64,000 bases of DNA, taken from the NCBI GenBank assembly GCA_033065855.1, contig JAVXUO010000967.1, forward strand, positions 42,501-106,500, in the 5' to 3' direction. The notes below the pieces were generated by a model. The model saw nothing but the letters and a program-made list of their open reading frames with translations, did no database searches and was not told where the DNA came from. Positions 16,640 to 59,838 of the stretch are shown here, piece by piece (positions within the stretch are counted from its first letter, which is position 1; each line of letters begins with the position of its first letter). This stretch comes from Escallonia rubra. Lineage: Eukaryota; Streptophyta; Magnoliopsida; Escalloniales; Escalloniaceae. The translations under genes and the position numbers were made by a program.

Positions 16640-16715
16640 ATTAAGCACTAAACCCACCACACTTCCAAAAGTTGGGCACTAACGCTGCGGTGCCTCCAGC
16701 GACTTTCTCGGCGTG

Positions 16716-17180
16716 ATGGCTTCTGATTCGTCGAGCAGCAGCAAATTTGTAGGCAACATGCACCTTGTAGGCAGACACTTCTTCAAGGTCATGATGCCTG
16801 GTTTTGATACAGAACTTGTAGGCCATCCCTCTTTCTTCTGTGTTTTCGTGTGTTAAAAGTTTGATCTTTGGTTAAAAACTAACCTATTTTTTGTATTGTG
16901 AATATGTTAGGACATACCGATAGCCTTTTCCGATTGGCTTACCACAATTTATTTCGATTCAACTTTAACCAGCCGCAAGGGGTCATGGCATGTAAGAATC
17001 AAGATGAAGCGCGGCCTCCAAGGTCAAATTACTTTCGCAGAGGGTTGGAACGAATTCATGCAGCAACATGGCCTCCAACTCGGGGACTTTGTAGTGTTTG
17101 AACACACGGGGAAGTGGAATTTTCAAGTGACGGTGTTTGATCGGAGCACTTGTGAAAAAACTTCTTTCCCCCAATGCTAA
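16716..17180 (+). CDS. Transposon-carried B3-domain protein, intact, one intron
   Basis: A 123-residue plant-specific B3 DNA-binding protein. Exon 1 is 16716-16817 and exon 2 is 16911-17180. The intron (16818-16910) has GT...AG ends and phase 0. The domain fills the protein: the opening FFKVMMPGFDTEL, then DIPIAFSDWL, SRKGSWHVRIK, ITFAEGWNEFM, LQLGDFVVFEH and FQVTVFDRSTCEK, all standard B3 blocks in order. B3 domains bind DNA in the nucleus. This one has no other domain, like REM-type single-domain proteins. It sits inside M2 next to the palindrome arrays, and M4 carries a second copy, so it belongs to the transposon. No lesion is visible. A plausible but untested role is binding element DNA. 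Confidence 0.85.
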
Positions 17181-17523
17181 ACCCTAAATTCTGTTATGAA
17201 TAAAATAGTTATGTTGATGTTCATGACTTTGGAGAATTTTAGGTTCTTTATTGTGCCGTTTGAGATTCCGTTGATATTGAGATTGTTGATTGTGAATCAT
17301 ACGTTTTTTTATTGTTAATCGATATTGAGATTGTTGATTCCGTCGATAAAACAAGTATTTGGTCAGCAATTTATTAAAATAGAATTATCGCCTTCCGCTA
17401 CAATGTCTAGCAGGCGGCGCAGCAGAAATTCCCAACATTTGAAAAATCGAAAGACGGGGTTCACTTATTAGAATGACATGTGGATAAGTGCTAGTTGGAA
17501 TGAAATCCTAACATACAGTAGGA

Positions 17524-17566
<43 letters not shown>

Positions 17567-17570
<4 letters not shown>

Positions 17571-18002
17571 TCTTCATTTGACATATACTCATCAGATAAG
17601 TACTGATCATTGGTTAAAATATTGTTTCTCTCGTTTGAATTGAGGTGCCTCCCACTAGCCTCGGCCATTTCTTCCGCAAGTTGAAGCATGTAAAATCGTT
17701 TTCTACGCAGCAACATTCCGGTTATTCTCCATACGAATTCGGCACACAACTTTCTTACACTGCTTAACATTACGCCTTGACATACTAAGTGAACGACGTT
17801 GCGACACAGGTGCTCTCAGTGTGGTGAGATCTTGGTGTAGTGCTTCTGATTCCTTAACTTGATATGCCCATTCTCTTCGTAAACCTGCATAATACTCTCT
17901 CGGATCCGTGTACTTCACTTCTTTGTAGTCGTCGTTCCTTTCACACAACAACCACACAGTCTCATGTCCCCGATAACTAGAACTACCAGGAACTCCTGCC
18001 AT
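17567..18002 (-). pseudogene. Gene X, M2 copy (unknown family)
   Basis: Homologous along its length to the intact 144-codon X gene of M4 at 53153-53587, from MAGVPGSSS to EYMSNEE. One extra base in the ...AACATTCCGG... stretch near 17716 (M4 has AACATCCGG) shifts the frame about two thirds through. It is divergent from the Y copy at 18368, with a 365-bp shared upstream region. No known domain. The middle is basic and rich in Arg and Glu (RIRMENNR). Confidence 0.75.
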
Positions 18003-18367
18003 TTAACTTATGTACATCTAATGCGATGAGCATGGCTAACATATATAAATAAGCCCCAACACACACACATACACAATATATTGTTGTGATAACTACACAA
18101 TAGCCTACCCATCTCTGGTGAGAAGACAAGTCTCTGGACACTGACACCTGCTTAATTGGTAGTTGGAGACAATAGCATGCCCATGTCAGTGAGAAGACAA
18201 GTCAAGACAAGTCTCTAGTCTCTTGCAGCGACTTGTCACATCTCATAAAGTTGAACCTGTAGCATCTAATAAAGTGGTCCCGTTTCAAAGTATATATAAG
18301 TACATGCATTGCATGAAGGGCAAAAGGCATAGAGTGATATACTCCCAGTTTCATAACAACTCTGGAA
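18003..18367. promoter_or_regulatory. Bidirectional upstream region of X and Y, M2 copy
   Basis: Closely similar to 53588-53959 in M4. TATA-like sequences face both genes: TATATATAAG near 18290 toward Y, and TATATAAATAAG near 18043, read on the minus strand, toward X. Several GACAAGTC and CATCTMATAAAG copies lie between. Confidence 0.5.
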
Positions 18368-18783
18368 ATGTCATATACTCCACGAGATATTTTTGAAGCA
18401 ATGGGTCGTTACTGGGCGGGCGAAGATGAATTTCACTATTCTTTCCGTCCAAGTTTGCGTTGCTCATCACGCTATGTTAATACATTACTGCAGAATGGTC
18501 GTATCGGATGAATTAATATGATGTCTTAGTAGCTGATTCACGGCGCATGAATATACCCATACCTCGACAAAAGGCAATCAACATGCCTCGAATTACATAG
18601 ATGGAGCTTGAAAGGGCACTGCATCGAATACGTGAAGAAAATAATAGAATGAGAGTTCGTCAAAGTAGCCATAACTTACGTCGTATGGCACGTGATGCAC
18701 ATGAAGATGACAACAACAATGAAGCACAAGTATACTTGAACATGAGCTTCGAAGTTGGATCTGTTTCCGATGCTTCGGTGTAA
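18368..18783 (+). pseudogene. Gene Y, M2 copy (unknown family)
   Basis: Matches the 143-residue Y frame of M4 (53960-54391). A one-base deletion near 18488 (TTACTGCAG versus TTACCTGCAG) breaks the frame. The last codons differ: TCA of M4 is TAA here, ending the frame at 18783. No ARGONAUTE fragment follows this copy, unlike in M4. Confidence 0.7.
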
Positions 18784-18870
18784 GATGAAGATGACTGAAC
18801 ATGCTCCAATGTTACGCTGTGTCAACGATGCTGCTTATTTGTAATTTAACACTTAGTTTTTCTTTGCAGG

Positions 18871-19275
18871 GCCGTCCGCTTTACTATGTATAAAGTGGTC
18901 CCGCAAAATGACAGATCTCCAACACTAGTTTTTTTTGTCTCTCTATGTCCGCTATACTATATAGCGAACGACCCTGTAGAAAATCAGATCGCCAACACTT
19001 GGTTTTTTTTTGTCTCTCTACGTCCGCTGTATAGTTAAGCGGACGGCCCTGCAGAAAGTCAGATATCCAACACTTAATTGTTTTTGTTTATCTCTATGTC
19101 CGCTATACTATATAGCGGACGACCCAGCAGAAAGACAATTTTCCAACACTTAGTTTTTTTTGTTTCTCTCTACGTCCGCTATATAGTATAGCGGACGGCC
19201 TTGTAGAAAGTCAGATCAACAACACTTAGTTTTTTTTTTCTCTCTACGTCCGCTATATAGTATAGCGGACGGCCC
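18871..19275. repeat. Palindrome array in M2
   Basis: Six units of about 75 bp, each with a 23-bp palindrome (GTCCGCT...AGCGGAC), followed by CTGCAGAAAG-like and AACACTTAGTTTTTT linkers. It lies between gene Y and the C48 exon. Confidence 0.9.
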
Positions 19276-19528
19276 TGTAGAAAGACAGAAACCAAAACTG
19301 GCCCACACTTTGTTTCCCACCGGTCAAAGCAAATCATAGATCAGTCAATGAACCAAAATGCTATCTCTGACAACAAATCAAACACTCAACTGAATTCAAC
19401 ACAACGATATCCAGTCAATCAAATCAATCGCATTCAACACCGATCAACTGATGTCAACACAAATCAAATCAATCACATTCAATATATGTTTATTAAAAAA
19501 CTGAATATAATGTTATAATGTTACAATG

Positions 19529-19828
19529 TCAATTGGGGCCCTCATCCCCTGCGAGAACCTCGTCATTACACGGATTTACAATAAACCTAATAGCTCTAGG
19601 CTGACCATTCATAATTTGTCAAGCCATCCTATACCTAAAGCCTTGTATGCATTCTTGGCTCCAAACGGTGTTCCTGAGGCTCTCAGACCGACAAATGTAA
19701 TCCATGTACATGCAGACGAAGACGCCGCAGTCCGAGGAATTATGTTGCTTGGGTCTACGCTTCTTCAAGCGGAAAATGAGCTTCGGCCTGCGCAGTACCC
19801 TCTCGTCACGCCTACCAGCAAATAGATT
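19529..19828 (-). pseudogene. C48 protease last exon (M2 remnant of PMD-C48)
   Basis: The minus strand encodes the catalytic-Cys exon of the Ulp1-like protease, with an intact splice acceptor (TTTCTCGCAG) and the stop codon at 19529, as in M4 at 51719-52030. The upstream exons are deleted, leaving the exon about 100 bp from the M2 terminus. The open plus-strand frame over the same bases is an antisense shadow. Confidence 0.75.
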
Positions 19829-20168
19829 CTGCGAGAAACATAATAAGCATTAAACATTAAACATACCAAACATAATAAGATTAATAAGTTTTACAATATG
19901 TCGCAGACGACTGACAGTTTTTGAAAAAGAAACGATCTGGGCTGTCCATCTTTCAGATCGCGCTTGCAAAATACCCTATTTTGCTAGCGCTCTCAACGGA
20001 TCAGCTCCCATATATATATATAAGATGACCACGTCACTGCTTACGTGGACATCCTCTTAGTTTGCCATGTGGACATTCATATTTTTTACTTTTTGAAAGC
20101 ATTTTAAATTTATTCACCCTTATGATAATGATTTGGATTCTTTTTTTTTTCCCTCTCTCTCCCTAGCG

Positions 20169-33984: not shown

Positions 33985-34960
33985 CCCGAGGGGTAACCAC
34001 AAAAAAATAATTATGATTTACCCCGATTAACCCCTAACACATCCCTAGGTAAACCTAATTAACTATAATTAACCCGAATTAACCATGATTCACCCTAATT
34101 AAACTTAATTAACCCTGATCAACCCCGATCAACCCTAATTAACCCCGATTAACTATAATTAACTCCGATTCACCTTAATTAAACCTAATTAACTATTATT
34201 AAACCTAAATAACCCTGATTAACCCTAAGTAAACATAATTATCTCGATTAACCCTAATTAGCCCCGATTAACCCTCAATTAACTCCGATTAACCCCTAAC
34301 ACATTCTTAGGTAACCCTAATTAACCCTAACAAAACTCTAATTAAACCCTATTAATATATTCCTAATTATCCTAAATAAAATCTAACCCTAACTATATAC
34401 TTAAACCCTGGATTCAATCACATGTTGGACAATATTAACTCTACAAATGAACTCAACGATTCTGAAGTGACTCAATCCTAATTAACACATTAACTCTAAT
34501 TAACCTTAATTAGCTCTTACTTAAACCCTAATTCACAATAATTAAGTCTAATTAAACTAGATTAACCCTATTTAGGTTGAAATTGCCCTCATTAGCATTA
34601 ACCCTGTTTAGCTCAAATTAGCCCTTATTAGACCTTATTGGCCCTAATTAAAACTGATTAGCCCTAATTTGCCCTAATCAACCCTGTTTAGCTCTAATTA
34701 GCCCTAATGATCGATGATTAACGTAATTAAAACCTCATTGTCCTGAGAAATCGTAGACAAACCCTAATTAAACCCAATTAGGGTAATTCACTGTAATATG
34801 TTCTAATTAGGCTCAACTAGCCCTAAGTAGCCCGAATTAATCCCTGAATAACACTAATTGAGTCTAATTAAACGCAATTAACTGCAATCAATCCTAAATA
34901 GCTCGAATTGCCCTAATTGTCCCTAATTAACACATTAACTCGGTATTTTCACCTTAATTA
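33985..34960. repeat. Degenerate CCCTAATTAA repeat region
   Basis: About 1 kb of imperfect units such as TTAACCCTAATTAA, resembling a telomere repeat interrupted by AATTAA. The complementary version occurs at 35940-36310 on the other side of the SNF2 inverted repeat. Confidence 0.75.
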
Positions 34961-35051
34961 GCTATTATCTATTTAGGTTCGGTACAAAATCATTTGTTTA
35001 TAGTGAACTTGAGCAGAGAAATTAAATCATGATTCCTAAATCCATTAATAT

Positions 35052-35423
35052 CTAATGATCCACCAAATCGGGGTTCTCAATTAAACCCGGTGCTTTTGGT
35101 TGGTAAGTTATGGACTCAAAAAAAATTCTTAGCGCCTCATGTTGAACCATCTCATCTAAGATCTTATATTCCGAGAATTCATATAACACTTTTGGCTCGC
35201 AACTCTCCATGTCTGCAAAAGAGAAGACTTTTTTAGACAAAAGATATTTCTCAGCCTGTCGCAGACATTTTCTGCCCTCCATTGTTCCTGAGGTAATTAA
35301 ATGGTATATATACACAGTTTTCTTCTGACCAATTCTGTATGCCCGACATATGGCTTGCCTTTCAACTGATGGGTTCTGACCAATATCAAGCAAAACAACT
35401 CTCGACGCCCTAACCAGGGCCAA
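35052..35423 (-). pseudogene. SNF2 helicase C-terminal fragment, DRD1/CLASSY-like (left arm)
   Basis: An open frame of 123 codons without an ATG. It begins just before ASRVVLLDIGQNPSVE and includes helicase motif VI (RQAICRAYRIGQKK), then VYIYHLITSGTMEG, a QAEK...LSKKVFSF segment, KILDEMVQHEALRIFFE and a short tail to a stop. SNF2 ATPases remodel chromatin. The order of a PSVERQAI.RAYRIGQKK motif, a QAEKDRLSELVF-like segment and EDKILD.MV.H resembles the DRD1/CLASSY group used in RNA-directed DNA methylation, recalled from family knowledge. The ATPase lobes upstream are absent, so it is a captured fragment, not a working enzyme. The SNF2 call is firm; the subfamily is less sure. Confidence 0.75.
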
Positions 35424-35443
35424 CTAGGGCTAATTCAAGCTAA

Positions 35444-35845
35444 ATGAGGTTTGAAAGGCAAGCTATGTGGGGCATAAATTTGGTTGGGGCGTCGAGATTT
35501 GTGTTGCTTGATATTGGTTGCAATCCATCAGTTGAAAGGCAAGCCATATGTCGGGCATACGGGATCGGTCTGAAGAAAACTGTGTGTATTTATCATATAA
35601 TTACCTCAGGAACAATGGAGGGCAGGAAATGTCTGCAATAAGCTGAGAAAGATCATTTGTCTCAGAAATTCTTCTCTTCTGCAGACATGGAGAGTTGTGA
35701 GCCAAAAGTGTTATTTGAAGTCCCGAAAGATAAGATCTTAGACGAGATGGTTCAACATGACGAGCTAAGGAAAATTTTTGAGTCCATTACTTACCAACCA
35801 AAAGCACTGGGTTAACTTCAGAACCCCGATTTGGTGGATCGTTAG
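35444..35845 (+). pseudogene. SNF2 helicase C-terminal fragment (right arm, inverted copy)
   Basis: Inverted duplicate of 35052-35423. It keeps the motif VI region (NPSVERQAICRAYGIGLKK) and the KILDEMVQHDEL segment. A stop at 35639 and small changes make it more decayed than the left arm. A partial duplicate of the motif VI DNA (TTTGAAAGGCAAGCTATGTG) occurs just upstream at 35450-35478. Confidence 0.7.
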
Positions 35846-36310
35846 ATATTAAAGGATTTAGGAATGATGATTTCCTCTGCTCAAGTTCACTATAACCAAA
35901 TGATTTTGTACCGAACCTAAATAGATAATAGCTAATTAAGGTGAAAATGCCGAGTTAATGCGTTAATTAGGGGCAATTAGGGTAATTCGAGCTATTTAGG
36001 GTTGATTACAGTTAATTGCGTTTAATTAGACTCAATTAGTGTTATTCAGGGATTAATTCGGGCTACTTAGGGCTAGTTGAGCCTAATTAGAACATATTAC
36101 AATTAATTACCTTAATTGGGTTTAATTAGGGTTTATCTACAATTTTGAGGACAATCAGGGTTTAATTAGGTTAATTAGCGATGATTAGGGCTAATTATAG
36201 ATTAAATTAACAGTAAATTAGGGTTAATCAGTTTTAATTAGGGCTAATCGGAGTTAGCTCGGTTTAATTAGGAATAATTATTGTAAACTAGAGTTTAATT
36301 AGGGTTAATC

Positions 36311-41049: not shown

Positions 41050-41530
41050 CCATCCGCCACATAGTCTAGTTGACATCGCAGCAGAAACATTGGACTTCAA
41101 TACTTAGAATTGTTTTGGTTGTTCAGGGCGTCTGTTACACTATATAGCGGACGGCGCAGCAGAAACATTGGACTTCAACACATGGAATTTCTTTGGTTGT
41201 TAAGGGCGTCCGCTACACTATATAGCGGATGGCGCGGTAGAAATATTAAATTTCAACACTTGGAATTTTTTGGTTGCTTAGGACGTCCGCTACACTATGT
41301 AGCGGACGGCGCAGCAGAAACATTAGAGATATAAGACTTACAATTTTTTTGGTTGTTTGGGGCGTCTGCTACACTATATGGCGGACGGCACAGCAGAAAC
41401 ATTGGACTTCAACACTTGAAAGTTTTTTGGTTGTTTAGGGCACCTAACATCAGTCTTTAAAACTTAGAATTTTTTTGGTTGTTTAGGACGTCCGCTACAC
41501 TATGTAGCGGATGGCGCAGCAGAAACATTG
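41050..41530. repeat. Palindrome array, centre of M3
   Basis: Six or seven units of about 70 bp: GTCCGCTACACTATATAGCG-type palindrome, GCGCAGCAGAAACATTGGAC linker and AACACTTGGAATTTTTTTGG. Lies at the 3' end of the transposase. Confidence 0.9.
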
Positions 41531-41616
41531 GACTTCAACACTTAGAATTTTTTTGGTTGTTTATTTGTGTTTTGTGGATTTTTGGTCATTTGTGTGTTCT
41601 GGATTTATGGCCATTT

Positions 41617-41943
41617 TTGTGTTGTGAATTTTTGGCCCTTATTGAGATAGGTTTGATGGTGGTAAGAAAATATTATGGCGTGGTTTTTTTGCCCTCATTG
41701 AGACAGCATGATGGTGGGGAAGAGATTGAAAGTATGGCTTTGTGGTTACACTGACACACCGTCTGTTACATTCTGTAGCAGACGCCCTAAACAAACAAAA
41801 AAATTCCAAGTGTTGAAGTCCAATGTTTCTACTGCGCCATCCGCTATACTATTGTTGTCTCAATGAGGGCAAAAAAACCACGCCATAATATTTTCTTACC
41901 ACCATCAAACCTATATCAATAAGGGCCAAAAATCCACAACACA
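41617..41943. repeat. Near-perfect 88-bp inverted repeat, centre of M3
   Basis: Arms 41617-41704 and 41856-41943 differ at about two positions. They contain AAAATATTATGGCGTGG and its complement. The spacer of about 150 bp includes a further palindrome. The arm sequence matches no family I recognise. It occupies the same central position as the ARGONAUTE inverted repeat in M4. Confidence 0.8.
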
Positions 41944-42050
41944 CAAATAAACCACCACAAAAAAAAAATTATATGTCTCAATCGAACTTCGAATAAATTG
42001 TTATTTAAAATAACATTGTTGTTTTAAAAATAATCGTTTAAAAGAAGTCC

Positions 42051-47812: not shown

Positions 47813-47951
47813 ATATATATATATATATATATATATGGGAGCTGATCCGTTGAGAGCGCTAGCAAAATAGGAGAAGTTGCAAACGCGATCTGACTGTCCA
47901 TCCTGAAAGATGGACGGCCCAGATCGTGCCTTTTCCAAAAACTGTCAGTCG

Positions 47952-48290
47952 TCCGCCATACATTGTCGCGGACTGAATTTTTTAGCTTTTTATCCCTCCG
48001 CGCCTGTCCGCTACACTGTATAGCGGACAGCATTAAAGTCCTGATAGGAGACAGCAAAAAGACGTCCGCTACACTATTTAGCGGACAACAAAAAGACGTT
48101 TGCTATATCGTGTAGCACACGTCCCCTAGGCTGACACATGTCAGTCCTTTTCGGCAATGACGGTTATCTTGTCCTTATCTGTCACGTTAACAGTGTCCGC
48201 TACACTGTGTGGCAGACGTGATAGCCATCTGCGATACTGTATCGCAAACGTAATAGCCATCCGTGATACTGTATAGCGGACGTTCAATAT
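47952..48290. repeat. Palindromes, PMD-side end of M4
   Basis: Six or more units, including variants with GCGATACTGTATCGC cores, between the left TIR and the PMD-C48 leader. Confidence 0.85.
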
Positions 48291-48334
48291 ACGTTCAAAA
48301 AATAGTAACTACGGCACTCTTCTCCACTGTTTCT

Positions 48335-48893
48335 ACTCACAAAAATTTTCAGCGGCGTTGGCAAGCAGATTGGAGCAATTCCGTCTTAAGAACACCTTTA
48401 ATACCCTAAATCGATCATGTAAGTTCACAAAATCTATTCCTTGTTTTGTTTGTAATCGATAGTTGTGATGAATATTGCGTTTTATATATGTATGTTTTTG
48501 TTCATGTGCAAGCGTTTGTAAAATCCGATTCTGTATATGTATATATATCTATTATACATATGAGTATATATGCTAACATTGTATGCATTTTTTGCATGTG
48601 CTTGCGTTATATGTAATATGCATGTGCTAGCTTTTGTTTGTAATCGATAGTTGTGATGAATATTGCATTTTATATATGTATGTTTTTGTTCATGTGCTAG
48701 CGTTTGTAAAATCCGATTCCGTATATGTATATATATCTATTATACATATGAATACATATGCTAACATTGTATGCATTATGCATGTACTTGCGTTATATGT
48801 ATTATGCATGTGATAGCGTCGTATTTTTGCGAGCGGTTATCAAAATCCAAAACGTAAAATCCAAATTGAGAAGGTTTTTCCATAATTTTAGTT
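48335..48893 (+). promoter_or_regulatory. PMD-C48 leader with 5'-UTR intron and a 190-bp internal duplication
   Basis: A leader exon ends at about 48419 (CGATCAT) followed by the donor GTAAGTTCAC. An acceptor TTTTAG lies at 48887-48892, just upstream of the ATG at 48904. M1 and M3 keep the same donor. Inside the intron, GTTTGTAATCGATAGTTGTG begins two direct copies at about 48447 and 48637. The AT-rich (TATATGTATATATAT) segments are inside the duplication. Confidence 0.6.
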
Positions 48894-48903
48894 GCAAAAA
48901 ATG

Positions 48904-51900
48904 GAATTTAACCCTGGACTAGAAGACCCATCCGTGTTATACGACCAAGCCAACCATATCAGTACGCTCATATGGGATGGTGGAGTAAGATACATTATTT
49001 ATCAACTTTCTTATTCTTACGAACGTTGTATGTACCGTTTGTTTTGCTTAAATTGTATTTATTAATTCGTAAGAAAGAGAACTTCTCAACACCGTAGAAG
49101 TATCTCGCGAGTTCACATCGTGGAAACTGAACACCGCCCAGAAGAGGATACTGCGTGGAATTGGGTTTGGGATTTTCACGCATGGGCAGATATTTCAACA
49201 GCTTGACCGGGCCTTGATAGGTGCCCTTGTTGAGAGGTGGAGAAGTGAAACGAATACATTTCACTTCCCGCTCGGAGAGACGACAATTACCCCAGAAGAT
49301 GTAGGGTTCATCTTAGGGTTACCAGTGACGAGGCGGCCGATAATTGCTCCTTCGTCAGAAGCAACGAATAAGAGAACCGCTCGGGACTTCTTAACTTCAA
49401 TACCCCAGGATCAATTTAGCAGTGGTGGTATCAAGTTGAAGTGGTTGGTAGATACCTACGGGGTTTTGCCGAAAAAACTATACGGGCCGTGACCTTGTGC
49501 TGTACACACAAGCCTTCCTCTGGTGGGTGATGGGGGCAATATTATTCCCAACGACCTCGAAGAACAAGGTTAGCGTGAGATATTTACCGTTGTTGGGTAA
49601 CCTGGCTGAGGTTGGAGATTATGCATGGGGTGCAGCGGTTCTTTCGTATCTGTACCGAGCATTGCACAAGGCAACGAGACCCGACTCCAAAGCCATATGT
49701 GCATGTCTCTTGCTATTGCAGGTATATCATATAAATCATGTCTTCGTTATTGTTTCTTTTGTTTTTGCTTTTGTTGAATCAACGATATAAATATAATTTG
49801 CCCATGTTCTCAGTTGTAGTCTTATGAACACCTTGTTCCCGGTGCACCAACGCGTAAGGATGGAACCGATAGAGTGTGGCCTCGGTTGCGTGCTTGGGAG
49901 TACAACCGGAAGGAGAGTTGATCCCCATCACAACATCACGTACTATCAAGGGGATTTCGACCATCTATCTCTGGGCCAAATGCGTTGGGCACCGTACATA
50001 CGTTTGGCGCGACAGGTAGAAGAGTCGTTCGTCTTCACGCTCTCCGGGTTACAGCGCACACCCCTCATCCACTTCGAGGTCGCAGAGTGGCCGCTGCCAG
50101 ACCGAGCAATGCGCTATTTTGAGTTGGAGCAGGGTTTGCCAGTCGGTGCCCCAGATATGAGGGTTAATAGGGACCCACCGGATGTCGGGCGGTTTGGCAA
50201 GGCCAATGCGCAAGAATTGTGCGCGGCCGAACTAGAGCTTTGGACTTCTTGGCAGGACACACTGGCGGCCATCATCTCAGAGCCGGACCTCGTTATCAGC
50301 ATCGAACAATACGATGAGTGGTACTACCGCATCATGCGGAGGAGAGTAGCCCCAGTGAACTTTGAACGCGGGGAGAGGTATGCGCCTAGGGGTCAGATCG
50401 ACGAGCGTATGGCATACAATCTCGTAAGTTGCCCAACTAGTCTGACTTGTTTTGAATTTGTTGAATATAAATGTCTGATTAAAGTTGCACATTTGTTATC
50501 TCTTTGGATGTAGGTTAATGCCTCGCTTGCATTCTTCCAGAAGTTGAGTGAGCGGAAGGATCTGGTGAGCGCAATGGGCGAGGATCTTCACCAACAGGCT
50601 GCTGCACTGGCTTCAGGCTGCAGGAATTTTGTGCGCCAAGCATCGGGACAGTCTTCGGTCGACAGCCCAGGAATGGGTTGTACGGGCGTCAGCCCGTATT
50701 ACGTTGATCCCTCCGGGCAAGCTTCAGGGGTGAGCCAGGGAGCTGGTGGTCCTCTGTACCGGGGATGGGACATGCTCAAGCGTCGTGGGCTGATTACAGC
50801 GGCCCGACCTTCAATTTGTTCCCGGAACCCTAACCCATCTCTCAGAGTCAAGTCACGCAAGACTGGCCTTAAGGTTTCAACGAGGCACTGCCCATTGTCC
50901 CGTGGACGGGACCACTTGGCGCCCCCGAAGAGCAATATTAGCCGGCGGAAGAAATGGCCGGCGAGCAATATCAGCCGGCCGGGGCCACCGAAGGCAATTA
51001 TCAGCCGGCCGATCCGTTGGTTGGAGGCCAATTTCTTCTATTGCTCTTGTCCCCCGGCGGAGGGCAAGAGCAACCGGTCGACCCCCGAGGGCAATATCTG
51101 AAAGGGCATCCAGCCAGGCCCCTGAAGCCGCATAAACATGACCTAATCCGAGCCCGTTATTTTAGCGGGCCCCCCCCCCAGACGGAGTGTCGTATGACGT
51201 GGATCACCCGCATGGCTTGGATTACAATGCCTCGTGGAGAGAACTGTCCTCGCTGGCGCCGGGAACTTGGTTAGACAACTTTGTCATCTCGCACTACGTG
51301 CAAATTCTGAGGCAAAAGGGTCGGGAGCAGCCTAACTACGGTCCGTGCATTTTTATCTTCGATGCTTACTTTCATGGCATCCTAGTACAAGAGTATAACG
51401 ACTGGGACAAATCAAGGAAGGCGAGAAAGGGGAGAGCCCTGCCCTAGTGAGCGCAAGTGTGGCGGACGTGTTTCTAATCCCATTTATAGTGAATGCCCAC
51501 TGGTACTTGGTTTGCTATGAACCGGTAGCGAAGACTGTATCAGTCCTCGACAGTCTCTACGATGATACCTCCGTGATGGGTGTGATTGAAATGTACCAAG
51601 GCTTAGGCCAGTTGGATGCCATGGTAAGATCATGTTTACTTCTTATTGTAACTTGCATATTGTAGAACTGATTAATCTTATTATGTTTAATGTTTAATGC
51701 TTATTATGTTTCTCGCAGAATCTATTTGCTACCATGGTCAATGGTAAGCGTCGAGAGAGGGCACCGGTCAGGCAGAAGGTTGTTTTCCGATTGAAGAGGA
51801 GTAGGCCCAAGCAATTTAATTCCTCGGACTGCGGCGTCTTCGTCTGCATGTACATGGATTACATCTGTCGGTCTGAGAGCCTCAAGAATACGGTCTGGAG

Positions 51901-52030
51901 CCAAGAATGCATAGACTGCTTTAGGTATAGGATGGCTTGGCAAATTATCAATGGCCGGCCTAGAGCTATTAGATTTATTGTAAATCCGTGTAACGAGGGG
52001 GATCCCGCAGGGGCTGAGGGCCCCAGTTGA
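48904..52030 (+). pseudogene. PMD-C48 (plant mobile domain + Ulp1-like protease) gene, M4 copy
   Basis: Five coding exons: 48904-about 48984, about 49060-49721, 49814-50423, 50514-51623 and 51719-52030, with GT...AG ends. PMD blocks: WRSETNTFHFPLGETTITPE, DVGFILGLPVTRRPIIAPSS, YLYRALHKATRPDSKA, SIEQYDEWYYRIMRRRVAPV. A repeated Gly-Gln-Tyr-Pro linker (GEQYQPAGATEGNYQPADPL) follows at 50955-51020. C48 triad: His in NAHWYLVCYEP, Asp in VLDSLYDD, Cys in SSDCGVFVCMYM, with an upstream Gln (PKQF). C48 enzymes cleave SUMO or related tags. Lesions: one extra A near 49475, TGG to TAG at 49817-49819, a frame change in the linker, and a frame change near 51447. The catalytic residues are kept. Whether PMD and C48 are one protein is inferred from the continuous long exon 4. 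Confidence 0.8.
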
Positions 52031-52271
52031 CAATGTTTTCTTATAATAACATTATATTCACTTTTTTAATTATCCTTATCGTTGAATCTTATCGTTGAAT
52101 GCGATTGATGATTTCATTTTTGTTGACTGAGATGTGATCCGTGTTGAATGCGATTGATTTGATTCACTGATATCGTTGTGTTGTTGATTTGAGTGTTTGA
52201 TTTGTTCTGTGTGATTTGCTTTGACCAGGGGGAAACAAAGTGTAAAAACCAAGTGTTTGGACACTGTGTTT

Positions 52272-53035
52272 CTGTTGGGCTGTCCGCTATACTATATAGC
52301 GGACATAGATAGGACCCAAAAAAAAACTAAGTGTTTGTTGGAGACTCTCTTCCTTCTGCGGGACTGTCCGCTATATCGTATCGCGGACATAGATAGGACC
52401 AAAAAAAAACCAAAGTGTTTGTTGGAGACTCTCTTCCTTCTGCGGGACTGTCCGCTATATCGTATCGCGGACATAGATAGGACCAATAAAAAAAAACTAA
52501 GTGTTGGAGACTATCTTTCTTCTGCGGGACTGTCCGCTATATAGTATAGCGGACATAGATAGGACCAATAAAAAAAAACTAAGTGTTGGAGACTATCTTC
52601 CTTCTGCAGGACTGTCCCCTATATCGTATCGCGGACATAGATAGGACCAATAAAAAAAATAAGTGTTGGAGACTCTCTTCCTTCTGCGGGACTGTCCGCT
52701 ATATCGTATCGCGGACATAGATAGGACCAATAAAAAAAACTAAGTGTTGGAGACTCTCTTCCTTCTGCGGGACTGTTCGCTATATCGTATCGCGGACATA
52801 GATAGGACCAATAAAAAAAACTAAATGTTGGAGACTCTCTTCCTTCTGTGGGACTGTCCGGTATATCGTATCGCGGACATAGATAAGACCAAAAAAATCG
52901 GAGACTGACCTTCTGTTGGGCTGTCCGCTTTACTAGATAGCGGACATACATAGGACAAAAGAAAAACCAAGGTTTGGAAACTGTGATTCTGCGGTGCCGT
53001 CCGCTTTATTGTATGGCGGATGTAGTTAGAAACAT
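52272..53035. repeat. Tandem array of about 83-bp units, each with a palindrome
   Basis: Nine to ten units: palindrome (CTGTCCGCTATATCGTATCG...), ATAGATAGGACCAATAAAAA, AACTAAGTGTTGGAGACT and CTCTTCCTTCTGCGGGA. Units in the middle are nearly identical, pointing to recent tandem amplification. Frames here repeat LSMSAIRYSGQSRRRKR-like peptides and are repeat translation. Confidence 0.92.
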
Positions 53036-53152
53036 AAATTCCCAACATTTTACATGCTTCAAAAGACGGGTTTCGCTAATTAGAATGACATGTGGATAAG
53101 TGCCAGTTGGAATGAAATCCTAACATGCAATAGGAAGAGATATATATATATA

Positions 53153-53587
53153 TCACTCTTCATTTGACATATACTCATCAGATAAGTACTGATCATTGGT
53201 TAAAATATTGTTTCTCTCGTTTGATTTGAGGTGCCTCCTACTAGCCTCGGCCATTTCTTCCGCAAGTTGAAGCATGTAAAATCGTTTTCTACGCAGCAAC
53301 ATCCGGTTATTCTCCATACGAATTCGGCGCACAGCTTTCTTACACTGCTTAACATTACGCCTCGACATACTAAGTGAACGACGTTGGGGCACAGGTGCCC
53401 TCAGCGTGGTGAGATCTTGGTGTAGTGCTTCTGATTCCTTAACTCGATATGCCCATTCTCTCCATAAACCGCAATAATACTCTCTCGGATCCGTGTACTT
53501 CACTTCTTTGTAGTCGTCATTCCTTTCACACAACAACCACACAGTCTCACGTCCCCACAGACTAGAACTCCCAGGAACTCCTGCCAT
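53153..53587 (-). CDS. Gene X: 144-codon protein of unknown family, intact in M4
   Basis: Open from ATG at 53587 to the stop at 53153. N-terminal part WLLCERNDDYKEVKYTDPRE, then EWAYRVKESEALHQDLTTLR, PVPQRRSLSMSRRNVKQ, RRIRMENNRMLLRRKR and an acidic tail (EYMSNEE). The middle is strongly basic and likely helical, which would suit nucleic-acid binding (inference). It is related to gene Y: EW.YR...E.L..D......P.P......M.R............RIR.ENNRM is shared. A TATA-like TTATTTATATATG lies 40-50 bp upstream on the minus strand. A copy in M2 has one frameshift. I do not recognise the family. Confidence 0.75.
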   Translation of the reverse strand: MAGVPGSSSLWGRETVWLLCERNDDYKEVKYTDPREYYCGLWREWAYRVKESEALHQDLTTLRAPVPQRRSLSMSRRNVKQCKKAVRRIRMENNRMLLRRKRFYMLQLAEEMAEASRRHLKSNERNNILTNDQYLSDEYMSNEE

Positions 53588-53959
53588 TTAACTTAGGTAC
53601 ATCTAATGCGATGAGCATGGCTAACATATATAAATAAGCCCACACACACATACACAATATATTGGTGTGATAGCTACACAATAGCCCGCCCATCTCTGGT
53701 GACAAGACAAGTCTCTGGACATTGACACCCTGCTTAATTGGTAGTTGGAGACAATAGAATGCCCGTGTCATAAAGTTGACAAGTCTTTGGTGACAAGACA
53801 AGTCTCTAGTCTATTGCAGAGGCTTGTCACATCTCATAAAGTTGAACCTGTAGCATCTCATAAAGTGGTCCCGTTTCAAAGTATATATAAGTACATGCAT
53901 TGCACCGAAGGGCAAATGGCATAGAGTGATATACTCCCAATTTCATAATAACTCTGGAA
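53588..53959. promoter_or_regulatory. Shared divergent promoter region of X and Y in M4
   Basis: The 372 bp between the two start codons hold TATATATAAG at 53883 (about 75 bp before Y) and a TATA-like sequence for X near 53622-53634 (minus strand). In between are repeats of GACAAGTC (near 53705, 53778, 53795) and CATCTCATAAAG (53830, 53855). The whole block is well conserved in M2. Confidence 0.55.
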
Positions 53960-54391
53960 ATGTCATATACTCCACGAGATATTTTTGAAGCAATGGGTCG
54001 TTACTGGGCGGGCGAAGATGAATTTCACTATTCTTTGCGTCCAAGTTTGCGTTACTCATCAAGCTATGTTAATACATTACCTGCAGAATGGTCTTATCGG
54101 ATGAATGACTATGAGGTCTTAGTAGCTGATTCACGGCGCATGAATATACCCATACCTCGACAAAAGGCAATCAACATGCCTCGAATTACACACATGGAGC
54201 TTGAAAGAGCACTGCATTGAATACGTGAAGAAAATAATAGAATGAGAGTTCGTCAAAGTAGGCATAACTTACGTCGTATGGCACGTGACGCACGTGAAGA
54301 TGGCAACAACAATGAAGCACAACTATACTGGAACATGAGCTTCGAACTAGGATCTGTTTCCGATGCTCCAGTTTCAGATGAAGATGACTGA
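53960..54391 (+). pseudogene. Gene Y: 143-codon protein of unknown family, one nonsense codon in M4
   Basis: Frame from ATG at 53960 to TGA at 54389-54391, reading MSYTPRDIFEAMGRYWAGED, EWSYRMNDYEVLVADSRRMN, IPIPRQKAINMPR, RIREENNRMRVR and an acidic end (SDEDD). Its only lesion is TGA at 54218-54220, where the M2 copy has CGA. Related to X over the central 70 residues, so the pair arose by duplication and stands head to head. The ARGONAUTE fragment begins directly after its stop codon, so any Y transcript reading on would carry it as 3' UTR. Confidence 0.7.
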
Positions 54392-54541
54392 AGATCGAGT
54401 TCTTCTAAGGCTATAAGGCCTCCACTTAGGCCGGGGTTCGGAAAGGTCGAAACTAAGTGTCTGGGTCGTGCCAACCATTTTCTGGTCCAAGTTGCAGACA
54501 ATGATCTGCACCACTATGACGTGAGATCCTCAGCTGTGCAC
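54392..54541 (+). pseudogene. ARGONAUTE N-domain fragment, left arm of inverted repeat
   Basis: Translation in the frame of Y, just after its TGA: SSSSKAIRPPLRPGFGKVET, then KCLGRANHFLVQVADNDLHH and YDV. This is the conserved start of the plant Argonaute N domain (recalled consensus RPG.G..G.K..V.ANHF...), and RANHFLVQVAD is closest to what I recall of the AGO5/MEL1 group. After the codon for Asp the DNA reads GTGAGATCC, which could be an intron donor, hinting at capture of genomic DNA rather than a cDNA. Only about 45 residues are present, so no protein function is expected. Confidence 0.8.
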
Positions 54542-55028
54542 CTATTGTTTGTGTGTGGGTTTCCGTGGTGCGTGGATGTATTACGATAATACTTCCTCGC
54601 TAATCATGTATTGTGTTAGAGACTTTCTTTCTGTGGTGCCGTCCGCTTTATAGTATGGCGGATGTGGATAGAAACAAAAAAAACTCTCATACGGTGTCGT
54701 CCGCTCTACTATATAGCGGACGGCCAAGCAGAAAGACAGATCGCCAACACTTGGTTTTTTCTCTCCTACGTCCGCTATATAGTATAGCGGATAGCCCCGC
54801 AGAAAAAAAGTCTCCGACACTTAGTTTTTTTTCTCTCATATCTATGTCCGCTATATAGTATAGCGGACAGCCTCGCAGAATACATGACCAAGCAGAAATG
54901 TGCACAGCTGAGGATCTTACGTCATAGTGGTGCAGATCATTGTCTGCAACGTGGACCAGAAAATGGTTGGCACGAACCAGACACTTATTTTCGACCATCC
55001 CGAACCCCAGCCTAAGCGGAGGCCTTAT
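54412..55028. repeat. ARGONAUTE inverted repeat, 130-bp arms
   Basis: Arms 54412-54541 and 54900-55028 differ at about 8 positions by eye (about 94% identity). The 358-bp spacer has a TATTACGATAATAC stretch and three family palindromes. Arms point toward each other, so RNA from either strand folds back. Confidence 0.88.
54640..54880. repeat. Palindromes within the AGO inverted-repeat spacer
   Basis: Four units (near 54640, 54700, 54769 and 54846) with GTCCGCTATATAGTATAGCG cores. Two more partial tandem units (GTCCGCTATATAGTAGAGCT) follow at 55029-55080. Confidence 0.88.
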
Positions 55029-55030
55029 GT
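54900..55030 (-). pseudogene. ARGONAUTE N-domain fragment, right arm
   Basis: On the minus strand: RPPLRLGFGMVENKCLVRAN then HFLVHVADNDLHHYDV. The possible donor after YD reads GTAAGATCC here, a better match to the donor consensus than in the left arm. Conserved residues differ slightly from the left arm (Pro to Leu in RPG, Gln to His in VQV). Confidence 0.8.
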
Positions 55031-55370
55031 CCGCTATATAGTAGAGCTAGACTTTGGTGTCCGCTATATAGTAGAGCTAGACATTATAGCGTAATGCAAT
55101 TTTAATAAATTGGAATAAATTGGCGCCCGAAGACTTGTTTTAGCGACATTGTAGCATAATGCTGTTTTAATAAATTGGCACCCGAAGACTTGTTTTAGCG
55201 ACGGAATCAATAATCTCAATATCGATAAACAATAACTTACGTCCGATTCACAATCAACGATCTCAATATATCGACGGAATCTCAAACGGCACAATTAAGT
55301 GAGAAAAAATTCGGAAAAATAATGAACATGAACATAAATTTATTTTATTCATAATAAACATAATTTAGGG

Positions 55371-55836
55371 TTAACATTGGGGGAAAAAACTTTTTTCACA
55401 AGTGCTCCGATCAAATATAAAAACTTGAAAATCCCACCATCCAATGTGTTCAAATACTACAAAGTCCCCGAGTTCGAGGCCATGCTGGCGCACGAATTCG
55501 TTCCAACCCTCTACGAATTGCTTTTTTTGGGGTCGGTCGGGCTTCAGCTTGATTCCAACATGCCATGCCCCTTTGTGGCTAATTAATCTTGAAGTGTCAT
55601 AAATTGTGGTAAGTTGATTGGTAAAGGCTTCCGGTATATCCTAACATATTCACAATACAAAAAATAGGTTAGTTTTTAACCAAAAGATCAAACTTTTAAC
55701 ACACACGAAAACACAGAGAAAAGGGATGGCCTACAAGTTAATTCTCAAATCCAGGCATCATGACCTTGAAGAAGTGTCTGCCTGCCAGGTGCAAGTTGCC
55801 AATAAATTCGCCGCTGCTCGCCAATCCAGAAGCCAT
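55371..55836 (-). pseudogene. B3-domain gene, M4 copy, one nonsense codon
   Basis: Same gene as 16716-17180. Exon 1 is 55836-55735, the intron 55734-55641 and exon 2 55640-55371. Exon 2 is fully open: DIPEAFTNQLTTIYD, GAWHVGIKLKP, QFVEGWNEFVRQHGLELGDF, VVFEHIGWWDFQVFIFDRST. Exon 1 has TAA two codons before the donor (FEN-stop versus FDTEL in M2), so this copy needs another splice choice or is dead. Exon 2 keeps codon phase and length (270 bp) despite many substitutions relative to M2, which hints at past selection for protein. Confidence 0.8.
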
Positions 55837-56032
55837 CGAGGTATGGGAATGTCGCTGAAGGCGCCGCGGCATTGAGGGGAGGTGGGTGGTGTCGCCGGAG
55901 ATGTGGGTCACCGGAGATGTGGGTCGCCGTAGATGGGGTAGCGGCTTGGGTTAAATGTTCGAGACAGAGAGAGAAACGGATGGATTGATAAAGATGATTG
56001 CCCGATCTGATTAATATATATAATAGGATAGA

Positions 56033-56283
56033 GTCATCCGCTACATTGTATAGCGGACATAAAAGAAAACCAAAAGTTTTTCTGCGATGCCGTGCGCTAC
56101 ATTGTATAACGGACATAAAAGAAAACCAAAAGTTTTTTCTGCGATTCCATCCGTTATATTGTGCAGCAGACACGAAGAACAAAACAAATTAGTGTTCTGC
56201 ATATCCGTCCGCTACATTGTATAGCGGACATAAATACACCTGCAGACTCTGTAGATCCATCCGCTACATAGTGTAGCGGACGA
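56033..56283. repeat. Palindromes between B3 and transposase in M4
   Basis: Five units (near 56035, 56092, 56148, 56205 and 56259), GTCCGCTACATTGTATAGCG type, partly decayed. Confidence 0.88.
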
Positions 56284-56442
56284 GGCAAACAAAAATAAAA
56301 AATAAAACTTAAGACTTAGATTTGTGGCCTCTCATAGGTCAATCAGAAAAAAAAAATCCAGTATTCAGTCAAATAATTATTAGAAAAAAATTACAAAAAC
56401 TTATTACAAATGTCAAACAGACTTGATGGCTTATACAAAAAA

Positions 56443-58737
56443 TTAAAGGTCCACTGCAGCTTGTTCGTCCTCATCTTCGGCGTCATCTTCTTCCCCGTCT
56501 TGCAAACCCCCTGAACTTATCCCCAGTGCCTTGTAATGGTTCTGCTTTTCGTGGTCGGTCATTTTGTTGCACAATGCACACCTTCGCAGCTTTTTAGGTT
56601 GAGTTGCCGTTTCAATAGAGCTTTTCATCCGTGTAGATCTCTTGCGGCCTTTCATTTGTGATATAATTGGATCCAATGGCCAGATATCATTGTCGTCTTC
56701 CTCCCCCGGCTCATCATCTTCTGATCCCGTCGTAGGCTCGGTGTCAACTGCATTGGTGACGGAAGCTGCTTCCAACTGGTCGACGATGGGCTCTTGCTGC
56801 TGAGCTACCTCGAGGAGATGTTTATAACCGACCATTGTAGCAACAGCCTTTACCGACAAACGGGTGAACATCGTCACCAGATGATTATACCGCAACATCT
56901 CTGATTCTTCAAAGTCAGTATACGGGTGCTCCGGAAAGGCAATGGTACCGTGCAACCTGTTAGCACCTTTCGTCCACCGTGGCAAGACGTATTTATCGGG
57001 GATTGTCCTGATATTCTTCTGGGTGAAAAATCGCAGAATGTGTCTACACAGGATGCCATGGAACTCAAACTTCTTGCAAACACATGTCACCGAGTCCGTC
57101 AATGTGTAGTGTCTCACCGTATACATTATGCGCAGCTTCTCAGGAACGAGGTCATTCACGAGCGAATAAACCTTGTACTCACGCGTAGACTTTTCGGCCA
57201 CCTTGTTTATACAGTATCGTCCCGATTTTTGCAGCTCTACTTGGTATAGCAAGAAGATCTTCTTCGTATAGACTTTGGCACCGTTCAGCTCCAACGGGGT
57301 CTCAAGCAACATTCTCCTCTGTTTGTACGTGGTTGCAAAGTCTGCAGCTCTTTCTTTCACGAACAACGACGCAACCGCTTTCTGTGCGGATGTGACGAAA
57401 CTCTTCAAATTGGTAGCTGTACCCACATAACTATCGACCGTGGCATTCATAGATTCACTCATGCCCGTCGTTTTCGTGCCCGTAGAAAAATGCATCCTCG
57501 TGTAAACGCCAATCCATTGCTCTTTGAGCTCGTACAAGTGCTGGAGCCACCCGTTGTCTTGCAATGAGTAATCCTCAACAAGATTTTCCCACCTCTCCTC
57601 AAATTCCTCAATCGTTAACGACTTGCTAACGCACGTGTTAAAATCCTGTTTAAAGTCTGAAAACTTTGCGTACACGTGATGCAAACATTCGAGGTATTTG
57701 TTGCTTATGTGCCAAGTGCACAAGTTAGGTCGAGTATCTGGGAAGACGGTGGCAATAGCCTTCTTCATTGCCAAATCTTGATCGGTGATGATAACGTTGG
57801 GTGCTTTGAAGTTCATGGCTTCCAGCCACGCCCTAAACAACCATTCAAAAGAACTCTCGCTCTCGTCCCTTAACAAAGCGAACCCGAACATGATGGAGTG
57901 ATAATGATGATTGACCCCCGTGAAAGGGGCAAACGGCATCGAGTACTTGTTGGTACGGTATGTGGTGTCGAAAGTCACGACATCCCCAAAATGCTTATAA
58001 GCAAGCCTCGAACGACCGTCGACCCAAAAAATTGTGCTAACTCGATGCTCGTCGTCAAGTTTATAATCGAAGGTAAACTGCGGGTCCTCTATCTGCATCC
58101 GTTTCAATAGGCTCATTGTGGCTTGAGCATCACTGAGGTCATTCGCGGTTCGTCTATGGGTTCGGACCGCGTTACGAACGTCTATCGTGTTAAAGTTTAA
58201 ATTTTGAATTCCCCCGGCCTGTTCAGCAAGAACATTAATCATGTCGGTAGGTCATAGCCGCGCATCGCTCATTGTGTGAATGAGGCTCCTCGCGACCTTA
58301 CCCATCTTCTTGTGTTGATGCATCTGACTCACCTTAGAAGGGGTTACTAACGGGTGATTGTGTGCCAGTTCCAAGCTGGTAATAAGCCAATGATTTTGCT
58401 TGGCTTTATAGCTTACGAACATCTTGACCTAGCAATTCGTTCGAGCAAAGCAGTCCCGTCTTCTGCGCGAATATCATATTTCGTCATCACTGTCATCGTT
58501 GCCTACGCGTGTCTCATTTTGCACTGGGTTTCTGCCCCTATGGCACTCGTATAAGCGAGAGCATATCTTTTTCGTTACGTTGCTCGTTCTTGTAGTCTTT
58601 ATTCTAATGCCAAATCCAACCCTCAATGAATACGCTCGAAAACATTCTCCAGCTTCTTCCAATGTTTGAAAGGTTCGTCCTAGATACGGATCACTAGCAT
58701 CTACGGGGGTGTTGGAGCTCGACACGAAATCAGACAT
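56443..58737 (-). pseudogene. FAR1/MULE transposase, M4 copy, nearly intact
   Basis: The ATG at 58737 opens the FAR1-type domain (LGRTFQTLEEAGECFRAYSL, LYECHRGRNPVQNE, DCFARTNC, ELAHNHPL). The 599-codon core from 58242 is uninterrupted: DDE region FGDVVTFDTTYRTNKYSMPF and VIITDQDLAMKKAIATVFPD, a candidate catalytic Glu in FEERWENLVEDY, SWIM finger CVCKKFEFHGILCRHILRFF, then an acidic, basic-patched tail with CALCNKMTDHEKQNH. Three nonsense codons fall in the 230 bp between (TGA near 58476, TAG near 58430, TGA near 58254), where M3 has GGA, CAG and GGA. Otherwise complete, about 765 codons, usual for the FAR1/MURA-type lineage. Confidence 0.88.
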
Positions 58738-59340
58738 TGTGAAACAAGACCTATGTAGAAATATAGACTACGCTTAACAATCAAATGACATTTTCAACTG
58801 AAAATATTACCTAAAAATTATCTTGACGAATAGACCAATTTAGGATGACAAATATACCATATACATAATCTCAAAAGTCTCCCATTTTGCTAATTATAGA
58901 TTTATTGAACATAACAAATTAAAATTACTAAGATAAATAGACAAATTCATCATGCCAAAATACAACAAACGTATCTCAAAAAATTTGAATTTAAATAGGA
59001 TAGATGTGCCGAAGTTAGCGCCCCTCAAAAAAATCAAAATTAACTACAATAAACTTCTTTAAAGTTAACAAATTAATTTCTAGAACATCACAAGTTGATG
59101 AATAGAGTGACAAATTTCTTGAACATCATAAAAAATCTGTACTTTTTTGTCCAAAAAAATATATATATATTTTATCAGTCAATCCACCCAGAAAATATTT
59201 GAGATCAGAAACTTACCTTGCTTGACTGAAGATTGAAGCAAGTGTTACTCGAAGCTTAAGGGAAGCCGAAAATGGAAGCAAGTGAATCCGAAGAAGAAGA
59301 AATTTTTGCCGAAAGAGCTGAGAATTAGGGAACTTTGGGG
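58738..59340 (-). promoter_or_regulatory. Transposase leader and 5'-UTR intron (M4)
   Basis: AT-rich non-coding DNA. A donor CAAG|GTAAGTTTC on the minus strand near 59217 and an acceptor close to the ATG match the M3 arrangement. No gene. Confidence 0.5.
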
Positions 59341-59345
59341 TATAC

Positions 59346-59735
59346 GGGAAATAATGTCCGCGATACTATATAGCGGAAATCATTCCCGACACTCTGACAC
59401 GTGTAGAAATAAACTCCCTGAAATAAAGTCCTAACCGGACCTGACAGGTGTCAGCCTAGGAGACGTCCGCGACACTGTATAACGGATGCCTTTTTTGCTG
59501 TCCCGTGTCAGGGCTTCAATGTCGTCCGGGATACAGTATACCGGACGGTGCGGAGGGGCAAAAAGGTAAAGTGTCAGCCTAGGGGACGTCCGCTATACAG
59601 TGTAACGGACGTCTTTTTGTTGTCTCCCATCAGGACTTTAATGCCGTCCGCTATATAGTGTAGAGGACAGGCACGGAGGGGCAAAAAGGTAAAAGAGTCA
59701 ATCCGCGACACTGTATGGTGGACGACTGACAGTTT
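59346..59735. repeat. Palindromes, transposase-side end of M4
   Basis: Six or more units, including GTCCGCTATACAGTGTAACG and GTCCGCTATATAGTGTAGAG, between the transposase leader and right TIR. Confidence 0.85.
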
Positions 59736-59835
59736 TCGAAAAAGGCACGATTTGGGCCGTCCATCTTTCAAGATGGACCGGTCAGATCGCGCTTGCAACT
59801 TCTCCTATTTTGCTAGCGCTCTCAACGGATCAGTT

Positions 59836-59838
<3 letters not shown>

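Follow-up and report, generated by a model that had tools for sequence, protein, structure and literature searches.

A hairpin of captured Argonaute sequence carried by a Mutator-like transposon family of Escallonia rubra: a candidate suppressor of a host silencing gene

Little is known of the ways in which transposons counteract RNA silencing. Slotkin et al. are said to have described in 2005 the Mu killer (Muk) of maize, an inverted duplication of MuDR that silences MuDR. Among the literature matches listed, rice miR820 is the one RNA-based plant example of counter-silencing: it is borne by CACTA elements and targets OsDRM2, whose repression has been demonstrated (PMC3459959). The miRNA measures 22 and 24 nt; Nipponbare has 5 copies of it, a BB genome at least 18 (PMC3459959). 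The preliminary description of the locus reported here had named miR820 and OsDRM2 as its precedent, and the paper bears this out. A search of titles and abstract openings (best-ranked matches, few subscription journals) returned no transposon hairpin directed against an Argonaute, and a text search of the literature with the peptide encoded by the hairpin arms gave 0 papers. Here we describe a transposon-borne sequence of Escallonia rubra whose RNA could suppress a host silencing gene; its structure is well supported and its function is putative.

The locus lies in a 64-kb window (the whole stretch of 64,000 nucleotides that was analysed), inside a Mutator-like element of 12,002 bp that we call M4 (47837-59838), which upholds the earlier proposal that it is transposon-borne. 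M4 is a Mutator-like element by its MULE transposase domain and its long terminal inverted repeats. The latter (47837-48086 on the + strand, 59588-59838 on the - strand) measure 250 and 251 bp, are 90% identical and both carry the terminal GGGA(G/A)CTGATCCG. The element is flanked by (TA)n on both sides, and both ends lie within (TA)n, where a target site duplication of about 9 bp would be indistinguishable. From left to right M4 contains pieces of a plant mobile domain (PMD) gene (49073-50513, + strand; Pfam PF10536, E 7e-21 and 1.1e-9), a Ulp1/C48 peptidase piece (51698-52030, + strand; PF02902, E 2.4e-6), two small genes g1 and g2, an exon for a B3 DNA-binding domain (55374-55640, - strand, convergent with g2; PF02362, E 6.2e-9) and pieces of a FAR1-type MULE transposase gene (56443-58767, - strand). 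The transposase pieces include an open frame of 602 aa in which both a MULE and a SWIM domain are recognised (PF10551, E 8.2e-32; PF04434, 2.9e-5), and a piece upstream of this frame has a weak FAR1 domain (PF03101, 4.9e-5, 24.4 bits for a cut-off of 28.1).

The genes g1 (53153-53587, - strand, 144 aa) and g2 (53960-54391, + strand) are divergent and paralogous, with 23/71 amino acids identical. No Pfam match was found for g1 at E 0.01, nor for the first part of g2 (frame 53930-54220). A sister element in the window (16687-19865) also has the B3 exon (16911-17177, + strand), and the orientation of its g1-g2 block relative to the neighbouring sequences is opposite to that of the corresponding region of M4 (51682-55867), with array repeats at the breakpoints. 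Several repeat structures were observed in the window. At 52244-52897, repeat units of about 81 bp that are based on the palindrome TCCGCTATAT..ATATAGCGGA form an array, to which those at 18912-19289 and 41077-41563 are related; these are putative binding sites. Nested long inverted repeats of 274 nt (95%) and 393 nt (88%) are present at 34748-36145, flanked by TAACCCTAAT-like short tandem repeats.

The inverted repeat itself is located behind g2, whose TGA ends 4 bp before the Argonaute-derived sequence. Its two arms (54413-54541 on the + strand, 54900-55028 on the - strand) are convergent, 129 nt each, separated by 358 nt and identical at 121/129 positions (blastn E 8e-50 in a search within the window), in agreement with the two convergent copies of 130 bp and about 94% identity noted before. 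The RNA fold of 54392-55031 reaches -383.4 kcal/mol, compared to a mean of -182.7 for 20 shuffles (z -34), and pairs 121/129 left-arm bases with the right arm, as anticipated for a hairpin. A chance origin of the inverted repeat was rejected on the E value and the fold z score. The span first assigned to the repeat, 54392-55030, holds both arms; it also includes 21 nt that are found in the left copy only.

Both arms translate into the start of the Argonaute N domain. Their ArgoN matches in Pfam have E values of 4.1e-4 and 2.6e-5; at 21.2 and 25.1 bits, respectively, they stay below the curated cut-off of 30.9 bits because the piece is short. The best PDB match of each is 'Protein argonaute 10' (entry 7sva, E 3.2e-6 and 1e-5), which we take to be the Arabidopsis protein. 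The Argonaute origin first proposed from the letters alone is thus supported by both searches. The capture breakpoint can be placed after 54395, since copies that have no hairpin share the sequence as far as this position. It is followed by Argonaute-derived sequence present in the left copy only (54396-54412, + strand), the match to the donor gene AGO-a described below starting at hairpin position 5. The left arm is AGO exon until 54520 and the start of the intron thereafter; the right arm is an inverted copy of exon and intron start. The loop (54542-54899, + strand) begins with AGO intron sequence and continues with TCCGCTATATAGTATAGCGGA array copies of the element, partly reversed. The AGO-a match extends to hairpin position 188 (about 54579), and a weaker one (79%) to position 243. 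Searches elsewhere gave 0 Rfam matches for the hairpin at gathering scores, 1 locus in viral contigs (a 9-residue match, judged spurious) and 99 pattern matches in prokaryote genomes, 0 of them confirmed.

The donor was sought in the same 566-Mb assembly from which the window is taken. A Pfam search for ArgoN gave at least 29 matches (150 of 436 candidates scored). The majority sequence of the hairpin copies is 92.4% identical over 184 nt to one gene, AGO-a (locus L065, contig C2974), and because this match crosses the exon-intron junction into the intron, genomic DNA must have been captured and not cDNA. The similarity to a host AGO gene expected from the preliminary description is close: 119/125 exon nt are those of AGO-a. 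The paralogue AGO-b, 56 kb from AGO-a, agrees at 114/125; the two genes differ from each other at 13 of these 125 nt. AGO-c, a third gene, has a similarity of 76% over 110 nt. Private changes over the 184 nt number 4 in the transposon, 10 in AGO-a and 13 in AGO-b, which points to a capture near the AGO-a/AGO-b split or to an unsampled paralogue as donor, and is also compatible with neutral evolution. The exons of AGO-a encode N and PIWI domains (Pfam), MID (PDB match) and PAZ-like frames (by eye). One MID exon is nearest to 'Protein argonaute 5' in PDB (3.1e-6, against 3.2e-4 for AGO1), whereas for the other AGO1 (1e-8) and AGO5 (2.8e-8) are nearly tied, so that AGO5 is likely, not proven. The N-peptide differs from that of the host's other AGO loci, which we take to be AGO1/10-like, as we take its motif to be that of AGO5. 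The AGO5/MEL1-like identity suggested earlier is retained in part: a likely AGO5-like donor is present in the same genome, one of its MID exons speaking for AGO5 and the other being nearly undecided with AGO1.

The preliminary description had a single copy of the hairpin, which is in fact a feature of a whole family. A 29-nt pattern made of the end of g2 and the start of the AGO piece (3 mismatches at most) occurs at 243 places in the assembly (125 on one strand, 118 on the other); the reversed control pattern occurs at 0. A similarity search with the hairpin found at least 40 main places (40 of 907 candidates scored), 38 of which cover all or nearly all of it at 89-100%. In the majority sequence of the 38 aligned rows the arms differ at 2/129 positions, compared to 2 to 14 mismatches in single rows, and the founder hairpin, judged from this consensus, is close to perfect. 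In two near-majority copies (L013 and L014), g2, the arms and the spacer together show 0 changes at their 713 non-CpG sites, and the stems are uninterrupted over 78 bp. One of the 38 rows, L010 (C2337:348057-351495), has the same hairpin as the window and was for this reason dropped from later alignments; its 3.4-kb surroundings align at 100% (rounded), as in a haplotig or a recent duplication. Two partial hairpins (L047 and L048) were left out of the arm counts.

A second sample of 10 copies was taken in list order from the 243 junction places, skipping those already fetched and ignoring the rest of the hairpin; all 10 match the pattern with 0 mismatches and do not, for this reason, represent the places at random. 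Nine of them could be assessed, the right side of L095 being cut by a contig end, and both arms are kept in 8. In the exception, L099, a right arm is absent from the 706 nt available. The loop is shortened to 119-237 nt in six of the 8 two-armed copies, compared to 358 nt in the window, and their left arm measures 86-89 nt; L096 has an uninterrupted stem of 106 bp.

Trees of the family fit a single gain of the hairpin. When 8 hairpin-less copies are included together with the window's sister element, a split with a support of 100/100 separates 35 hairpin-bearing rows from these 9 hairpin-less rows, and the list-order sample repeats the split with 11 and 8 rows. An earlier tree, which had no outgroups and included the two long rows L020 and L040, placed the sister element inside the hairpin clade; this placement was rejected, as all 9 hairpin-less rows fall outside in the fuller tree. 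L020 and L040 were left out of the 35-versus-9 tree, and L087, which has a long branch, out of the 11-versus-8 tree. In the latter, end branches are shorter in the hairpin-bearing copies (Mann-Whitney p 0.0025, for two sets that were picked differently). Hairpin-less junctions number at least 55, a count obtained with a pattern two mismatches off the hairpin-less junction, so that 243 to 55 is not a fair ratio.

The layout around g2 suits expression, and the hairpin would form the 3' untranslated region of the gene. A TATA-box-like core promoter, AAAGTATATATAAG, is suggested by its sequence context at 53878-53891 (+ strand); this 25-nt context is identical in 33/39 aligned rows and the ATG of g2 is present in 35/39. 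The first AATAAA after g2 lies beyond the hairpin (55104-55109, + strand). Such a signal is found 13-103 nt beyond the end of the right arm in 39/39 rows, and 34/39 have none before the end of the hairpin (5/39 have one), so most copies would give transcripts with a long hairpin at their end. We also considered the AGO piece as a coding fusion with g2, with which it is in the same frame, and rejected it, a stop codon lying between the two in 39/39 rows (TGA in 38, TAA in 1). Intact g1 is present in 21/39 aligned rows and intact g2 in 19/39; the g2 of the window copy has an in-frame stop. The long rows L020 and L040 were kept in the divergence, g1/g2, site-class and promoter counts, and raise the g1/g2 rates.

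The arms were also compared with the AGO exons as 21-mers. In either arm of the majority sequence, 18/109 21-mers are perfect to the AGO-a exon, and L013 and L014 have 18 such 21-mers per arm. At least one perfect 21-mer exists to AGO-a in 36/37 aligned copies and to AGO-b in 27/37, and all 10 list-order copies have one or more to AGO-a in at least one arm. The window copy has 0 to AGO-a and 2 to AGO-b; among the 109 21-mers of each arm, 28 in the left arm and 32 in the right arm are one mismatch off AGO-a. For the concern, raised at the outset, that the arms might be too divergent from every host AGO gene to guide cleavage, the outcome is mixed: it is less favourable for the window copy than for the family, with its 36/37 aligned copies.

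Capture, donor group, hairpin, position, copy number, arm retention in the sampled copies and match to the donor are shown by the sequence. The best explanation for them, to which we give a tentative probability of about 0.42, is that the hairpin of the transposon yields siRNAs that lower a host AGO5-like protein and thereby ease the silencing of the element. A Mutator-like lineage would have captured an exon of a host AGO5-like gene, with the start of the next intron, once and directly behind g2, and a second, inverted AGO copy would have arisen in the spacer. An mRNA that starts at the g2 promoter and reaches the poly(A) signal beyond the right arm would have a long hairpin as its 3' untranslated region. 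Dicer-like enzymes would cut its stem of about 129 bp into siRNAs of 21-24 nt, which would match the AGO5-like mRNA (AGO-a, and less well AGO-b) and lower that Argonaute. AGO5/MEL1-type proteins act in reproductive tissue, and the knock-down would probably take place there. A lower level of the AGO5-like protein would weaken the silencing of the element and make its spread easier. Transcription, dicing, AGO knock-down and a benefit to the transposon are thus the parts that we infer. A further step would be that this high-copy MULE lineage spreads by RNAi against a host Argonaute: siRNAs from the hairpin end of the g2 mRNA would cut the AGO5-like mRNA in the germ line, turning the RNAi of the host on one of its own effector proteins, and AGO-a and AGO-b would have drifted away from the hairpin faster than the hairpin has changed. 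We consider this extension rather unlikely. The counts behind the drift are small: over 184 nt, AGO-a has 10 private changes and AGO-b 13, compared to 4 for the transposon.

The same structure could be a case of passive gene capture, which we regard as a real possibility: a host fragment would have been picked up, the spacer would then have been inverted and duplicated by the repeat array in a lineage that happened to multiply, and the hairpin would be inert. MULEs tend to acquire fragments of host genes (PMC6446971; PMC13317346), and the present lineage also carries the B3 gene and other genes. Moreover, the second MULE of the window, element A (37770 to about 46057), has an inverted repeat of 96 nt and 96% identity (41613-41708 and 41853-41948) that is not derived from AGO; it adjoins an array, in a spacer comparable to that of the hairpin, and a 63-aa frame through it has no Pfam match. 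Inverted duplication may therefore be a habit of such elements. Compensatory evolution of the arms was looked for and rejected: mismatches average 6.97 between the arms of one copy and 7.08 between arms of different copies, and identical double changes are not in excess (6, compared to a shuffled mean of 4.21 and maximum of 10). Variants that break pairing are common (54521 G>T in 15/37 copies, 54925 T>C in 13/37). The arms depart from the majority letter at a rate of.023-.025. The loop array (.043) and the g2 promoter (.057) diverge more, but the 76-nt spacer is lower (.017) and g2 is close (.027); as similarity to the hairpin also served to select the copies, the figure for the arms is no proof of constraint. 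What passive capture leaves to coincidence is that the fragment comes from a silencing gene, takes the form of a hairpin and has near-perfect arms in near-majority copies; nor does it lead one to expect both arms in 8 of the 9 assessable list-order copies, even where the loop has shrunk.

The hairpin might also be harmful to its carrier, giving siRNAs by which, as with Mu killer, the family and perhaps the donor AGO gene too would become methylated, in an epigenetic conflict. We find this improbable. The precedent of Mu killer, an inverted duplication silencing MuDR, favours it, and so does the CpG and CHG decay seen in both arms and flanks. Within the arms (both summed, copies L011-L046 and the window), changes amount to 62/888 at CpG, 69/1292 at CHG, 39/2917 at other C/G and 55/4431 at A/T sites; this concentration at CpG and CHG suggests that the copies were probably cytosine-methylated in the past. 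In the loop array the other C/G sites are raised too (141/2415, compared to 97/5328 for A/T). In the arms, however, the remaining C/G sites show little or no excess (21/1476 and 18/1441, compared to 15/2175 and 40/2256 for A/T), which gives no clear CHH signature of the RdDM type there. Against it also stand the 243 junction places of the hairpin lineage and its sampled end branches, which are shorter than those of its hairpin-less relatives. It is very improbable that the host has domesticated the hairpin to tune the dosage of its AGO5-like protein, a role which near-identity to AGO-a and the many copies would suit, as the elements that contain the examined copies have decaying genes and are scattered over many contigs.

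If counter-silencing by the hairpin is real, this strategy arises repeatedly, in a different transposon superfamily, and can hit an effector of RNAi; if the hairpin is inert, the family offers a clean natural test of whether hairpins made by gene capture matter. Compared to known systems, the locus is related to several without coinciding with any. With Pack-MULEs and Kaonashi MULEs it shares gene capture and a Ulp1/C48 domain (PMC13317346), but Pack-MULEs are non-autonomous and without transposase and Kaonashi elements are of the non-TIR type, whereas M4 contains its own transposase pieces and TIRs and holds the captured piece as a hairpin. Like the MuTAnT elements of Medicago, MULEs of TA microsatellites, those of the window are inserted in (TA)n, the likeness being limited to the window's elements; the MuTAnT terminus is GGGGTTTGCTAGAACA (PMC4486113) and the ends of M4 are different, as given above. 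Mu killer is likewise a long MULE-related hairpin, but its arms are transposon sequence and silence the transposon, whereas here they are host AGO sequence. The teosinte pollen drive Tpd1 has a long non-coding hairpin with siRNAs against a host gene; its hairpin locus lies on chromosome 5, its target is a pollen lipase and its 22-nt siRNAs have been demonstrated (PMC11390486). VANC of the Arabidopsis VANDAL elements shares with our locus a transposon-borne counter-silencing function, here putative, within the MULE group, with tandem repeats as frequent targets, but it is a protein acting on the element's own DNA and not a candidate RNA against a host gene (PMC5735166). The closest system is miR820, in which part of a host silencing gene, exon and intron, resides in a DNA transposon, folds into a small-RNA precursor matching its donor and multiplies along with the transposon (PMC3459959). 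A captured silencing-gene fragment with a precursor-like fold is present in M4 as well; residence in a CACTA element is absent, M4 having a MULE transposase. There the target is a methyltransferase and the product a miRNA; here the target would be an Argonaute, the source is a long inverted repeat, found at 243 places. The kind is already known from miR820; the long hairpin, the putative Argonaute target, the MULE host and the hundreds of places are new.
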